Positions 1,674-11,807 of a DNA stretch of 64,000 bases are shown here, one piece after another (position 1 is the stretch's first letter; each line of letters starts with the position of its first letter). The notes below the pieces were generated by a model. That model made no database searches, was not told the origin of the DNA, and saw nothing but the letters and a program-made list of their open reading frames with translations. The position numbers and the translations under genes were made by a program. The DNA lies in contig JAERSW010000045.1 in assembly GCA_016845305.1 (NCBI GenBank), forward strand, positions 1 to 64,000, read 5' to 3'. The stretch comes from Acidimicrobiales bacterium (GTDB lineage Bacteria; Actinomycetota; Acidimicrobiia; Acidimicrobiales; MedAcidi-G1).

Positions 1674-1727
1674 GGGTGCCCGTAGGGCTCAGGGTGCCCG
1701 CAGGACTCAGGGCGTCCGCAGGATGCG
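1674..1727. repeat. 18-bp tandem repeat across a stop codon
   Basis: Three consecutive 18-bp units lie at 1674-1691, 1692-1709 and 1710-1727. The first two differ at two positions (gggtgcccgtagggctca, gggtgcccgcaggactca); the third is more diverged. The TCA at 1707-1709 is the stop codon (TGA on the minus strand) of the propeller gene, so the repeat duplicates the end of that gene, stop included, into the gap before glpD. It looks like a slippage duplication; no function is evident. Confidence 0.7.
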
Positions 1728-3290
1728 GGTCTTGCCGAAGACGTTGCCGAACAGGATCCGACCGTCGCCGTCGAGGTGCACGCCACCGCCGAGGGTGTTG
1801 AACCGGCTGTCGCCGACCACCCAGTGGCCCCGGGGCCGACCGGTCGTCCAGTCCACGGCCTCGATGGTCCACCGACCGTCCCGCGTGCCGCACGTGTAGA
1901 CGGTGTCGGCCCCGAGACTGACGTACGGCACCGAGTTGGGCGAGGCCACGTCGGCCACCCAGGCCTCCCGCAGCTGGCGGGCCGAGGTGTCCCACTCGTA
2001 CTTGTGCATGCCGGACGGGCGGAAGCGGTCGTGGTGGCCGAGGAAGAAGCACAGCAGTCGGGCGCCGCGCTGCGGCAACCAGTCGGGACGCGTGCCGGGC
2101 TCGTTGTCGACCGTCATCGCCCCCCAGCCGGCCACGGTGATCGACTGCTCGGTCTGGATGGCGTCGCGGTCGGGGTCGCCCATGTGCGCCGGTCCGAGGC
2201 CGGCGATGCGCCGCGACGGGGCGTCGGGCAGGCCCTTCCAGTCGTCGGGGATGGCGTCGCGCCAGAACAGCGTGATGTTGACCACGTCGTCGCCGTCGCC
2301 GATCACCACGAACCGGTCATCGTCGGGGTCGTCGCCCATCAGCGACGGGGTGGTGCCCGAGCCACGGCCGGTGCCGTTGCGGTAGCGGGCGCTCCACGCC
2401 CCGTCGGCCTCGTCGAACGAGAAGCGCTCGCCGGTCCACACGACCCGGTGGGTGGTGTCGACGGTGCTGACGTACACGCCGCCCTCGTCGTCGCAGCACA
2501 GGCTGGTGCGCACCCAGCCGTAGCCGGTGTTGCCCCGCTCGGCCTCCATGCGGGCGCAGTGCTCGGCGGCCACGTCACGGTCGGCCTCCACGGCGCCGGG
2601 CAGGCGGACGGCGACGTGGTCGGAGAAGTCGCGGGCCAGGCTGACCAGCCAGCCGTGGTCCGTCGACAGGACGAGGCGGCCGTCGGGGGTCATGTTGACG
2701 CCCACGAAGAAGCCGTCGACGCCGTCGGGCTTGTCCCAGCGGGCCTTCTCGACGAGCGGCGAGCGGCGGTCGGTCGGGTCCTCCTCGGCGTAGGCCACCG
2801 CGCCGGCCTTGCGGCCCAGGAACAGGGTGTGCTCGTGGTCGAGGAGGGCGTAGACGCCGTCGAGGCCGGTCATGAAGCGTGAGGCCAGGCCGGCGGCGTG
2901 CAGCACGGGTGCGTCGTCGTCGCCGTGGATGCCCTCGTCGAGGCCGGCCACGCCCGCCTCCCAGTCGGCCTGCGAGCTGGGTGGCTCGTCGGGCCGCTCG
3001 TGCGACAGGTCGAAGGTGGCGAGGACCTCGAGGGTGTCGTGGTCCAGCTTGGCGATGCACTCGCGGCCGTTGCTCCAGATGGTGCGACCGCCGTCCGGAT
3101 ACGGCCCGGAGATGAGGCCCCCGAAGTGGCCGGGTCCGAGCCACGTGTACTGGCGGTCGGCCTCGCCGAGGACCTCGGCCCCGTCGGGGACCGCGCCGGC
3201 GATGGCGGTGCTGTCGCGTTGGTCGCAGCGGCCGTGGGCGATCGGGTTCTCGCTGTCGGCCAGGAACGGGTTGTGCCAGCCGCCGGTCAC
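1707..3290 (-). CDS. Beta-propeller-like protein of unknown function
   Basis: 527 aa. I do not recognise a named family. The sequence is rich in short Trp/Asp/Gly-containing repeats of the type seen in PQQ/SMP-30-like beta-propellers (for example segments ending in RLVLSTDHGW and GGVYVSTVD), and no signal peptide or membrane segment is visible, so a cytosolic propeller that binds or converts a small molecule is the best structural guess. The start is fixed by a 4-bp GTGA overlap with the stop of the upstream TauD-type oxygenase, which means translational coupling. It is the third gene of a marR-tauD-propeller operon, so it probably acts on the same substrate as the oxygenase. The end of the gene is duplicated by an 18-bp tandem repeat. 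Confidence 0.72.
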   Translation of the reverse strand: MTGGWHNPFLADSENPIAHGRCDQRDSTAIAGAVPDGAEVLGEADRQYTWLGPGHFGGLISGPYPDGGRTIWSNGRECIAKLDHDTLEVLATFDLSHERPDEPPSSQADWEAGVAGLDEGIHGDDDAPVLHAAGLASRFMTGLDGVYALLDHEHTLFLGRKAGAVAYAEEDPTDRRSPLVEKARWDKPDGVDGFFVGVNMTPDGRLVLSTDHGWLVSLARDFSDHVAVRLPGAVEADRDVAAEHCARMEAERGNTGYGWVRTSLCCDDEGGVYVSTVDTTHRVVWTGERFSFDEADGAWSARYRNGTGRGSGTTPSLMGDDPDDDRFVVIGDGDDVVNITLFWRDAIPDDWKGLPDAPSRRIAGLGPAHMGDPDRDAIQTEQSITVAGWGAMTVDNEPGTRPDWLPQRGARLLCFFLGHHDRFRPSGMHKYEWDTSARQLREAWVADVASPNSVPYVSLGADTVYTCGTRDGRWTIEAVDWTTGRPRGHWVVGDSRFNTLGGGVHLDGDGRILFGNVFGKTRILRTP

Positions 3291-4147
3291 GCCCAGGGAC
3301 CCTCGCCCGCGGCGTTGCTCCCGGGGGCGTCGTCGCCCAGCCGGTAGGCCTCCATGGGGCCGCCGGCCACGTGCACCCGCTCGACCACCCGCTGCCCCTC
3401 GAAGTCGAACAGGGCGTAGTGCTGGGTGCTGCGGTTGTCCCAGATGACGACGTCGCCCTCGGTCCAGCGGTGCCGGTAGGTGAAGTCGGGCCGGGAGGCG
3501 TGCCGGATGAGGAACGGGAGGATGGCGCTGCTCTCGTCGGGCGGGAGGTTCATGATCCCCCGGCTGAAGATGTCGTTCACGAACAGGATCGGCCGACCGG
3601 TGTCGGGGTGGGCCACGACCACCGGGTGGACGGCCTTGGCGTCGGGGCCCTGGTCGTGGAGGCACTTCCGCCCGTCGACGAGTGCCTTCATGCCGCCGGA
3701 CAGCTCCTCGTAGGCGGCGCAGCAGTTGGTCCACGTGGTGTCGCCGCCAGCGTCGGGGCCGGTGCGCATGACGAGCACCGCGGCGCTGGGGATCACGTCG
3801 CGGAACGTGCCGTCGGTGTGCCAGCGGTCGGCCTTGTAGCCGACGGCCGAGTCGAACCGGCAGATCATCGGGTGGTCGGGGTGCTTGGGGAGGTGGTCCT
3901 CGGGGACGATGGGCTCCCCCAGGGCCGCCGCCAGGACCACGTGCTGCTCCGGCGTCGGGGCCAGGCCCCGGAGGACGACGACGTGGTGGTGGAGCATGGC
4001 CCGGTGCAACTCGGCCCGGGCGGTGTCGTCGTGGAGCAGCAGGTCGAGGTCGGGGTCGACGACCTCGATGCCGATACGTCCCGAGACGGGGCGCAACTGC
4101 AACTTCTGGCCTGTCGCGGCGGTGGTGGCGGTGCTCGTGGTGCTCAT
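3287..4147 (-). CDS. TauD/TfdA-family Fe(II)/2OG dioxygenase
   Basis: 286 aa, about the usual TauD length. The iron-binding facial triad is visible as His110-x-Asp112 (WHTDGTF) and the distal His243 (TQHYALFD), with Arg253/Arg257 placed to bind 2-oxoglutarate. The family hydroxylates taurine, alkyl sulfates, phenoxy acids, carnitine precursors and others; the substrate here cannot be read from sequence. An ATG at 4147 that overlaps the marR stop by ATGA decides the start over the longer reading at 4198. It is translationally coupled to the regulator before it and to the propeller protein after it, so it is likely derepressed by its own substrate or a related ligand. Confidence 0.88.
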   Translation of the reverse strand: MSTTSTATTAATGQKLQLRPVSGRIGIEVVDPDLDLLLHDDTARAELHRAMLHHHVVVLRGLAPTPEQHVVLAAALGEPIVPEDHLPKHPDHPMICRFDSAVGYKADRWHTDGTFRDVIPSAAVLVMRTGPDAGGDTTWTNCCAAYEELSGGMKALVDGRKCLHDQGPDAKAVHPVVVAHPDTGRPILFVNDIFSRGIMNLPPDESSAILPFLIRHASRPDFTYRHRWTEGDVVIWDNRSTQHYALFDFEGQRVVERVHVAGGPMEAYRLGDDAPGSNAAGEGPWA

Positions 4148-4638
4148 GGGCTGAGGGCTCCCTCGGGGACGCGGGTCGGGTCGGGTTCGTGGGTCCACCA
4201 GGCGCTGGACGAGGCGCCGGTGAGGCGCTCGAAGCCGCGGACCAGGTCGCGCACGGCGGCCAGGGCGGCGTCGTCGTCGAGGTCGGTGAAGACGAGGCGG
4301 TAGCGGTCGACGAGGTCGGCGAAGACGGCATCGTGGGCGGTCCGGCCGGCGTCGGTGAGGGCCACCAGGCGGCCCCGGCCGTCGGCGGGATCGGGGTGGC
4401 GTTCGACCCAGCCCCGGGCCTCGAGGCGCTTGAGGGTGGCGGTCAGGCCGCCGGACGTCTGGACGATGCGCTCGGCGATGAACGACGGGCTGACGACGGC
4501 CTCCGGCGAGTTGGCCAGCATCAGGAGGACGGACGCCTCGGCCGAGGTGGTGTCGTGGCGGCGGTGGTGCTCGGCCAGGAACTGCTCGTTCAGGCGCCCG
4601 AGGCGGGTGAGGAGGAGCCCGAGGGTCGCCGCGTCCAT
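4144..4638 (-). CDS. MarR-family transcriptional regulator
   Basis: 164 aa with the MarR winged helix-turn-helix: helix-turn-helix around TSGGLTATLKRLEARGWVER and the wing DPADGRGRLVALT, flanked by dimerisation helices. MarR proteins are dimeric repressors released by small aromatic or lipophilic ligands. It is the first gene of a tightly coupled operon with a TauD oxygenase and a propeller protein, which it presumably controls. The promoter and a perfect 7-bp inverted repeat sit immediately upstream (4645-4676), so autoregulation is likely. The ATG lies 6 nt after the -10 box, which suggests a leaderless mRNA. Confidence 0.92.
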   Translation of the reverse strand: MDAATLGLLLTRLGRLNEQFLAEHHRRHDTTSAEASVLLMLANSPEAVVSPSFIAERIVQTSGGLTATLKRLEARGWVERHPDPADGRGRLVALTDAGRTAHDAVFADLVDRYRLVFTDLDDDAALAAVRDLVRGFERLTGASSSAWWTHEPDPTRVPEGALSP

Positions 4639-4644
4639 GCGGGG

Positions 4645-4676
4645 AGCCTAGGCCACCAGTACCTTGCTGGCAAGGT
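4645..4676 (-). promoter_or_regulatory. Leaderless marR promoter with overlapping operator
   Basis: Reading on the minus strand: -35 TTGCCA (4673-4668), a 17-bp spacer, -10 TAGGCT (4650-4645), then 6 nt to the marR ATG at 4638. A perfect inverted repeat ACCTTGC-TG-GCAAGGT (4661-4676) covers the -35 box and spacer, as expected for a MarR operator. The spacing puts the transcription start at or next to the start codon. Confidence 0.7.
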
Positions 4677-4694
4677 TTCTAGAGTGGCGGTCGG

Positions 4695-5768
4695 CTACCC
4701 GAGTTCGGTGTAGCCGAGCGGACCCGGCGTGTAGAGCGTCTTCGGGTCGAACCGCTCAGGGCCCCGACCGTCGCCGATGCGGGCCACCAGGTCCGGCGTG
4801 GCGAGGAAGTGCCGACCGAACGACACGGCGTCGCAGCCACCGGCGTCGATGGCCGCGTCGGCCTCGGCGGCGTCGAACGAGTCGTTGGCGATGAGCGCCC
4901 CGTCGTGCAGCTCCCGGGCCATGGCCAGGTTGTCGAGCACGACGCCGGGGTCGCGCTCGTGACGCCGGATCACGTGCAGATAGGCCAGACCGAGGGGCCG
5001 GATGGCCGACAGGAAGGCCCGGAAGGTCGCCTCCACGTCGTCGGCGGGGTCGTCCTCGAGCCCGTTGAACGGGTTGCCCGGGCAGATCCGCAGGCCGACC
5101 CGGCCGGCGCCCACCTCGTCGACGAGGGCCTCGAGCACCTCGACCGGGAAGCGGATCCGGGCCTGGAGCGACCCGCCGTAGCGGTCGGTGCGACGGTTGG
5201 CGGTGCTGCTCAGGAACTGGGCGGGCAGGTAGCCGCTGGTCCCGTGCAGCTCGACCCCGTCGAACCCGGCGTCCATGGCCAACGCCGCGAACCGGCGGTA
5301 CTCCCCCACCACGGCCGCCACCTCGTCGGTGGTCAACTCCCGGGGCTCGTCGAAGGGCTGCATTCCCTCGTCGTCGGTGTACATGGCGCCGGCGGCACGG
5401 ACCGCCGACGGGGCCACCGTCTCTGTCCCCGGGGCCTTGTTGGCCGCGTGGGCGATCCGCCCCACGTGCATGGCCTGGGCCACGATCCGGCCGCCCCCGG
5501 CGTGCACGGCGTCGGTCACGGCCCGCCATCCCGGCACCCGCTCCGGTCCGTCGAGGACCGGCGTGCGGCAGTAGCCCTTGCCGACCTCGCTGGGGGCGAT
5601 CCCCTCGGTCACGATCAGCCCCGCGGTGGCCCGGGCGCCGTAGTGCTCGGCCATGAGCGCCGTGGCATCGCCGTCGACGGTGGCCCGCGACCGGGTCATG
5701 GGGGCCATGACCACCCGGTTGGCGAGGTCGAGGTCGCCGAAGCGGGCGGGATCGAGCAGGCGGGGCAT
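4695..5768 (-). CDS. Old Yellow Enzyme family ene-reductase (NemA-like)
   Basis: 357 aa FMN-dependent TIM-barrel reductase of alpha,beta-unsaturated carbonyls, maleimides or nitro compounds, using NAD(P)H. The N-terminal NRVVMAPMTRSRA block, the AQAMHVGRIAH block and the NRRTDRYGGS block are those of the NemA/OYE class. The substrate-binding pair normally reads His-x-x-His/Asn; here it is His175-x-x-Ser178 followed by Tyr180 (ELHGTSGYL), an unusual replacement of the second hydrogen-bond donor. A -10 box TAGATT lies at 5775-5780, 6 nt before the ATG, so the mRNA is probably leaderless. It stands alone between the marR operon and a divergent hydrolase. Confidence 0.9.
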   Translation of the reverse strand: MPRLLDPARFGDLDLANRVVMAPMTRSRATVDGDATALMAEHYGARATAGLIVTEGIAPSEVGKGYCRTPVLDGPERVPGWRAVTDAVHAGGGRIVAQAMHVGRIAHAANKAPGTETVAPSAVRAAGAMYTDDEGMQPFDEPRELTTDEVAAVVGEYRRFAALAMDAGFDGVELHGTSGYLPAQFLSSTANRRTDRYGGSLQARIRFPVEVLEALVDEVGAGRVGLRICPGNPFNGLEDDPADDVEATFRAFLSAIRPLGLAYLHVIRRHERDPGVVLDNLAMARELHDGALIANDSFDAAEADAAIDAGGCDAVSFGRHFLATPDLVARIGDGRGPERFDPKTLYTPGPLGYTELG

Positions 5769-11306: not shown

Positions 11307-11807
11307 TCAGTCGACGATGGCCTCGGTCTCGGTGAGGCGGACCAGGGGGATCACCCGGTCGGTCTTCGCCTGGTAGTCGGCGTACCACGCCCGGTCCTCG
11401 AGCATCGCCGCCCACAGGGCGTCACGCTCGGGGCCGGCGTCCAGCACCTCGTGCTCCGACCAGAACATGCCGTCCTGCACCCGGACCTTCACCCGGGGGT
11501 TGGCGTCGCGGTCGCGCAGGTTCAGCACCCACGACGGGTCCTTCGTGGCGCCGGCGAACGAGCCGATCACGATCCGGTGCCCGTCGAGGTCACGCCAGTA
11601 CGGCAACGCCACCTTGTGCTCGTTGCCGGACCGCCGGCCGATGGTGTGCAGCAGGACGTGGTGCATGCCGGCCACGCACCACACGGCGTCGTCGTCAGTC
11701 ATCTCCATCCCGGCCACGTGGCCACGGGAGATCTCGATGATCTCGTCGTGCGACGGGGTCTCCCACTCCATCTGGACCTTCTGGCTGCTTCCCTCGTTCT
11801 CTGCCAT
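11307..11807 (-). CDS. F420-type deazaflavin-dependent oxidoreductase (DDN/nitroreductase family)
   Basis: 166 aa split-barrel protein. The segment GMHHVLLHTIGRRSGNEHKV followed by LPYWRDLDGHRIVIGSF and the NPRVKVRVQD strand are hallmarks of the actinobacterial DDN family, which uses reduced coenzyme F420 to reduce quinones, nitroimidazoles or other ene compounds. The ATG at 11807 lies 7 nt after a -10 box TACGGT (11815-11820), which suggests a leaderless message and rules out the longer reading. The gene stands alone, divergent from the sulfatase. It implies that the host makes F420. Confidence 0.88.
   Translation of the reverse strand: MAENEGSSQKVQMEWETPSHDEIIEISRGHVAGMEMTDDDAVWCVAGMHHVLLHTIGRRSGNEHKVALPYWRDLDGHRIVIGSFAGATKDPSWVLNLRDRDANPRVKVRVQDGMFWSEHEVLDAGPERDALWAAMLEDRAWYADYQAKTDRVIPLVRLTETEAIVD

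Follow-up and report, generated by a model that had tools for sequence, protein, structure and literature searches.

Within the window (the whole 64,000-nucleotide stretch of DNA analysed here), a gene for a MarR-type regulator heads a TauD-propeller gene pair, and a palindrome stands immediately in front of it. This arrangement raises the question of whether the neighbouring MarR uses the palindrome as its operator, and whether the regulator could thereby control its own operon at a leaderless promoter.

Anatomy of the marR promoter and operon

The palindrome reported in the initial annotation was indeed present at 4661-4676 (ACCTTGCTGGCAAGGT) and reads ACCTTGC-TG-GCAAGGT, a perfect 7-2-7 inverted repeat whose arms (4661-4667 and 4670-4676) are 100% complementary; we refer to ACCTTGC-NN-GCAAGGT, with core CTTGCYAGCAAG and no assigned strand, as the operator dyad. 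Reading along the minus strand, we located a -35 element, TTGCCA (4673-4668), within the dyad, followed after 17 nt by a -10 element, TAGGCT (4650-4645), and after a further 6 nt by the ATG of marR at 4638, in the same succession that the initial annotation had given. That annotation also called the promoter near-consensus, which holds for the -10 element by the actinobacterial standard (TAGGCT is a full match to TANNNT) but not by that of E. coli: counted by hand against the E. coli consensus, TTGCCA matches TTGACA at 5/6 positions and TAGGCT matches TATAAT at 3/6, or 8/12 in total, and a strict consensus scan found no E. coli-type sigma-70 promoter with at least 9/12 hexamer matches. The promoter has the geometry by which we define leaderless starts, namely a TANNNT hexamer 6-7 nt 5′ of an ATG or GTG, and an in-frame stop three codons 5′ of the marR ATG makes a start farther upstream impossible.

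From this predicted leaderless ATG, marR (4144-4638, minus strand) encodes a 164-aa protein with orthologues in related genomes. Its MarR winged-helix domain was recognized by Pfam MarR_2 (PF12802, 7.8e-15) and by PF01047 (3.5e-10), both past the cut-off, and MarR chains in the PDB were matched to it by sequence. Its identity as a named NCBIfam regulator was ruled out, as the best score against the named MarR equivalogs (MarR, BagL/FevM, OhrR, HpaR and others) was 40.1 bits vs a cut-off of 240. The segment VQTSGGLTATLxRLE, which we take to be the recognition helix, is nearly invariant across 13 aligned MarR proteins.

Downstream, tauD (3287-4147, minus strand; Fe(II)/2-oxoglutarate dioxygenase family, Pfam TauD 5.5e-51) shares an ATGA with marR and overlaps the propeller gene (1707-3290, minus strand) by 4 bp. 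These overlaps make it very likely that marR, tauD and the propeller gene form one three-gene operon and, together with the comparative data below, they bear out the initial annotation's linking of the regulator to the TauD-propeller pair. The best solved sequence for TauD was an (R)-phenoxypropionate dioxygenase, and taurine dioxygenases were also among its nearest solved relatives, so an aryloxy or sulfonate acid might be guessed as the TauD substrate or the ligand of the regulator. The 527-aa beta-propeller protein had no family in Pfam, NCBIfam or PHROGs, and its structure model (mean pLDDT 67.5, with 153/527 residues below 50) gave many propeller matches. We rejected reading its function or substrate from this middling model, as the matches were generic ones to many unrelated propellers. 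The labels glpD, smp30, sulf and tauD2 are readings of translations by eye, made without family matches.

We also asked how far these elements exceed chance expectation in a single genome. The exact palindrome occurs as a single copy in the 2.92-Mb assembly, and the sole instance of TTGNNN-17-TANNNT in the window is the one at marR, although 0.51 were expected and at least one appeared in 40/100 shuffles. Ten perfect 7-2-7 palindromes were found in the window, and the one at marR alone has at least three A/T per arm; seven-base inverted repeats with spacers of 0-8 are expected about 0.12 times in the 56-bp gap upstream of marR. Given the ten palindromes and this expectation, sequence from a single genome does not make a compelling case, and as judged by sequence comparison the evidence for the palindrome is weak from one genome and strong once relatives are compared.

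Conservation of the dyad and its co-occurrence with marR

Our family search covered 48 genomes, including the window's own, 16 of which matched at 1e-10. Fourteen orthologues (own genome included) were testable, being full-length with an upstream region, while G035 was cut by a contig end and G045, which has a weak paralogue only, was left out. In 14/14 of these the dyad was kept, along with a TANNNT hexamer 6 or 7 nt before an ATG or GTG, such that a conserved palindrome overlaps the promoter of the regulator's own operon throughout the testable set. After removal of two exact duplicates of a third promoter, 12 distinct promoters remained, and in 12/12 a hexamer in the dyad (TTGCCA, TTGCTA, TTGCTG and, once, TTTCTA) lies 17 bp from the -10. 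Columns of the operator core were 67-100% identical and the TA...T of the -10 was 100% identical, whereas the flanks were mostly at 33-50% and most of the spacer was poorly conserved. Where the gap to the start codon is 7 rather than 6 nt, the dyad and the -10 are shifted jointly, and the upstream neighbour varies among the orthologues (an old-yellow-enzyme family gene, a divergent hydrolase gene, or none of the window's genes). Kept and co-shifted despite a changing neighbour, the dyad and the -10 behave, by this comparison, as a promoter-operator unit. The conservation likewise backs the initial annotation in laying an operator over the -35 and spacer and in assigning a leaderless start.

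Beyond the family, a profile search for the regulator found it in 16/397 genomes of the order, under six family codes, and a search of the phylum found it in 2/396 genomes, these being the window's own and one already found in the order. We compared 15 outside-family marR loci (L053-L056, L066, which is the same as L057, and L067-L076), with named Acidimicrobiales contigs included; L069 and L075 share one genome, L074 and L076 share another, and a weak Streptomyces match (L058) was not counted. The core CTTKMYRKMAAG, matched at 11/12 positions or more with its ends as given, was present near the operon start in 14/15 of these loci, the exception being L074 (G360 contig 33, tauD-marR order), where no recognisable dyad was found in 9 kb. 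L076 is a more distant marR paralogue next to a divergent, weakly similar tauD.

The order of the genes differs between loci, and the dyad stays at the operon promoter: it is 5′ of marR in marR-first loci, 5′ of tauD in 3/4 tauD-first loci (L066, L067 and L069, not L074), and between the genes in the two divergent-gene loci, L099 and L101. In seven further marR-first loci (L053-L056, L068, L070 and L071), the dyad contains TTGACA or TTGCCA, and a spacing of 17-18 bp separates this hexamer from one resembling a -10 (TANNNT in 4, TTAGAT or TTAGTT in 3), itself 6-7 nt from the start codon. L072 and L073 retain the dyad but show no leaderless geometry, and L067 and L069 have their dyad positioned over a -10 rather than a -35. 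The dyad pattern used for these counts was derived from these same promoters; across 256 kb surrounding marR genes, it produced 3 stray matches. Separately, we observed that the same seven marR-first loci contain two overlapping dyads 12 bp apart, reaching from the -35 nearly to the -10, and that in L036 (2217-3759) the homologue of the window's gene at 49-1629 is split into two adjoining matches, a frameshift or a broken gene.

The propeller gene is commoner than the regulator, occurring in 58/397 genomes of the order, and thus provides a natural control. In 43 genomes the propeller gene has no marR beside it, and we took 40 stretches from them (127.7 kb in total), omitting G063, G094 and G397, where the propeller gene is incomplete or reaches the end of a contig. 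The dyad was absent upstream of all 40 marR-less propeller genes across the 127.7 kb scanned, in stretches of which 31/40 were at least 3 kb and 9 shorter, 39/40 reaching at least 1.4 kb and one having 500 bases; in the nine marR loci measured, the distance between dyad and propeller gene is 1.32-1.39 kb. An earlier control had comprised 23 marR-less loci with 1.5 kb upstream of each. One locus near a contig end (L169, in G332) has tauD adjoining the propeller gene but lacks marR, and the 1.5 kb beyond contains no dyad; the dyad thus seems to accompany marR rather than tauD.

To place these differences on a phylogeny, we built a quick tree from 44 propellers, of which 21 come with marR and 23 do not; on it, the presence of marR required 8 changes, 7 of them on supported branches. 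Dyad and marR agreed in 7/7 independent tree pairs (sign test p 0.0156), with G035, whose upstream region is missing, left out of the pairs; upstream lengths were uneven in this run, and longer stretches gave identical labels. At two loci without marR (L110 and L111, in G019 and G022), the propeller gene starts 18 and 10 nt past the stop of what is seemingly the same upstream gene, and this looks like an empty site for the promoter, marR and tauD. In the close relatives L015-L017, it is the promoter, marR and tauD that follow that upstream gene, which was identified by eye.

We then considered whether the dyad marks other operons. The strict 14-mer CTTKCYRGMAAGRT, searched in 18 genomes and matched in 12, hit 9 marR promoters and 4 other sites (G032 contig 14, G035 contig 92, G043 contig 5 and G045 contig 12), and the reversed pattern, used as a control, matched once overall. 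The strict form missed 5/14 family promoters, each off by a base, and sites one base off were sought genome-wide in G000 alone. None of 12 window proteins was found near the 4 non-marR sites. Across these 18 genomes we rejected a wider regulon, as these extra sites all fall within the open reading frames of other genes; MarR in this family seems to govern no more than this one operon.

A model of the switch and its alternatives

Our model builds on what was observed: how the promoter is built and conserved, a 17-bp spacing that does not vary within the family, a dyad that occurs together with marR, and overlapping genes. The palindrome is very probably the docking site of its regulator, lying over the promoter of that regulator's own operon, and MarR would bind it as a dimer. 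Such a dimer on the dyad would cover the -35 hexamer and the beginning of the spacer, thereby blocking RNA polymerase and keeping marR, tauD and the propeller gene off. A ligand, perhaps the substrate or product of TauD, would bind MarR and cause the repressor to leave, upon which a leaderless mRNA would begin at or next to the marR ATG. One arm of the operator would double as the -35 element. Taken as a whole, we consider it likely that the palindrome serves as operator for the MarR encoded next to it, and that MarR represses its own operon at a leaderless promoter with one arm as the -35.

The same dyad might instead be bound by a MarR that activates its own promoter, or that does both. The authors of a study of ForZ, which is leaderless and has its site over its own -35, proposed that it could autoactivate (PMC12421854), and for this reason we weighted activation up and the repression reading down. 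Set against this, the very bases of the -35 are part of the dyad in 12/12 promoters, and the dyad lies over the -35 here and over the -10 in L067 and L069, positions that both fit a steric block and do not fit activation by contact; MarR sites over the -10 or -35 usually mean steric repression, as put in the cited part of another report (PMC5401885). Activation is, on balance, unlikely.

We regard it as decidedly unlikely that the dyad is an operator while the main transcript comes from elsewhere, by read-through from the old-yellow-enzyme gene (OYE) or from an upstream promoter, with the leaderless start being illusory. OYE is on the same strand and ends 56 bp upstream of marR, and a consensus scan for a second promoter or terminator at the locus was empty; against this, OYE is closed by a strong hairpin across its stop codon (4686-4724, minus strand; -21.6 kcal/mol, z -3.6), which may act as a terminator lacking a U run and separate OYE from the marR promoter, and 14/14 orthologues retain both the -10 and its spacing from the start codon whatever lies upstream, including the divergent hydrolase gene. 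A palindrome arising by chance, or acting as an RNA element rather than an operator, is scarcely credible: the expectation for a gap of this size, given above, leaves some room for coincidence, but the palindrome is conserved independently of gene order and absent where marR is absent, and it lies upstream of the predicted transcript. Repression by MarR bound over the -35 thus remains our preferred reading.

More tentatively, and with slightly less than even confidence, we surmise that the operator, marR and mostly tauD make up a cassette gained and lost repeatedly 5′ of a propeller gene that is more widespread in the Acidimicrobiales, with the operator re-siting on whichever promoter element is available. 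If so, an arm would serve as the -35 in marR-first loci with a leaderless start, the operator would sit on the -10 in tauD-first loci that have a leader, and in one group it would be doubled across the spacer; one 12-bp core would be under joint selection as operator and promoter element.

Leaderless starts, known systems and significance

The initial annotation described the layout as unusually compact, a description that we do not uphold. Of the 55 genes crudely called in the window, 6 have TANNNT 6-7 nt before the ATG or GTG, compared with 4 at other distances from 0 to 40, and ForZ of Streptomyces has the same layout (PMC12421854), so the arrangement is neat but has precedent. Besides marR, such starts were seen at 5768, 9440, 11807, 27797 and 56637 (minus strand), the one at 11807 being a start that would shift that of its open reading frame; the OYE gene and an MFS-like gene are among the six. 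Raw counts of TANNNT 6-7 nt before RTG in the window were not above those of shuffles, and the signal thus lies in placement at gene starts. The five other sites are probable leaderless promoters, and leaderless starts are probably normal in this genome.

These starts resemble those of M. tuberculosis, where leaderless transcripts were reported for 26% of genes having a primary start site and where a TANNNT -10 sets the start at the start codon; the cited part of that study found no conserved -35, unlike the TTGNCA-like hexamer kept here as part of the operator (PMC3898074). In the part consulted of another leaderless-related paper, Acidimicrobiia appear only in an anti-SD table.

Among regulators, ForZ (Streptomyces formicae) is MarR-family and actinobacterial, with a leaderless gene and a palindromic site over its own -35, as here; however, it is transcribed divergently from its repression target, the exporter gene forAA, is the proposed autoactivator mentioned above, binds an imperfect 8-bp inverted repeat of other sequence, and responds to formicamycin (PMC12421854). 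CrtR (Corynebacterium glutamicum) is likewise MarR-type, actinobacterial and autoregulated, its gene is reported to be leaderless, and its regulon is very small, perhaps one site; unlike the regulator studied here, it is divergent from the crt operon, needs a TTAA motif and has isoprenoid pyrophosphates as its signal (PMC5401885). The same source gives MarR sites as typically 16-20 bp over the -10 or -35 (PMC5401885). Among the nearest PDB entries, 8YLG is described in the cited part of one paper as a DNA-bound MarR structure. Our literature search found no MarR paper with this dyad among the matches listed. In a string search that listed 25 of 4,390 matching papers, the one MarR paper among the 25 concerns AesR (C. 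glutamicum), which we rejected as a same-dyad regulator on the grounds of its other motif: its half-sites are ACTATG/CATAGT, its operator lies 92-135 bp 5′ of the start codon, and the ACCTTGC string in its footprint is a chance occurrence inside an imperfect repeat (PMC13413800).

The design is therefore a familiar type of bacterial on/off switch that is well conserved in relatives. For uncultured marine Acidimicrobiales, it offers a pairing of regulator and operator that is well supported and whose presence and absence form a natural series. It is a simple case in which operator arm and -35 element are identical bases, and what seems to us worth keeping is the series of gain, loss and re-siting of one operator together with its regulator. 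The pair also indicates which genes to induce for finding the substrate of the unnamed TauD-propeller pathway.
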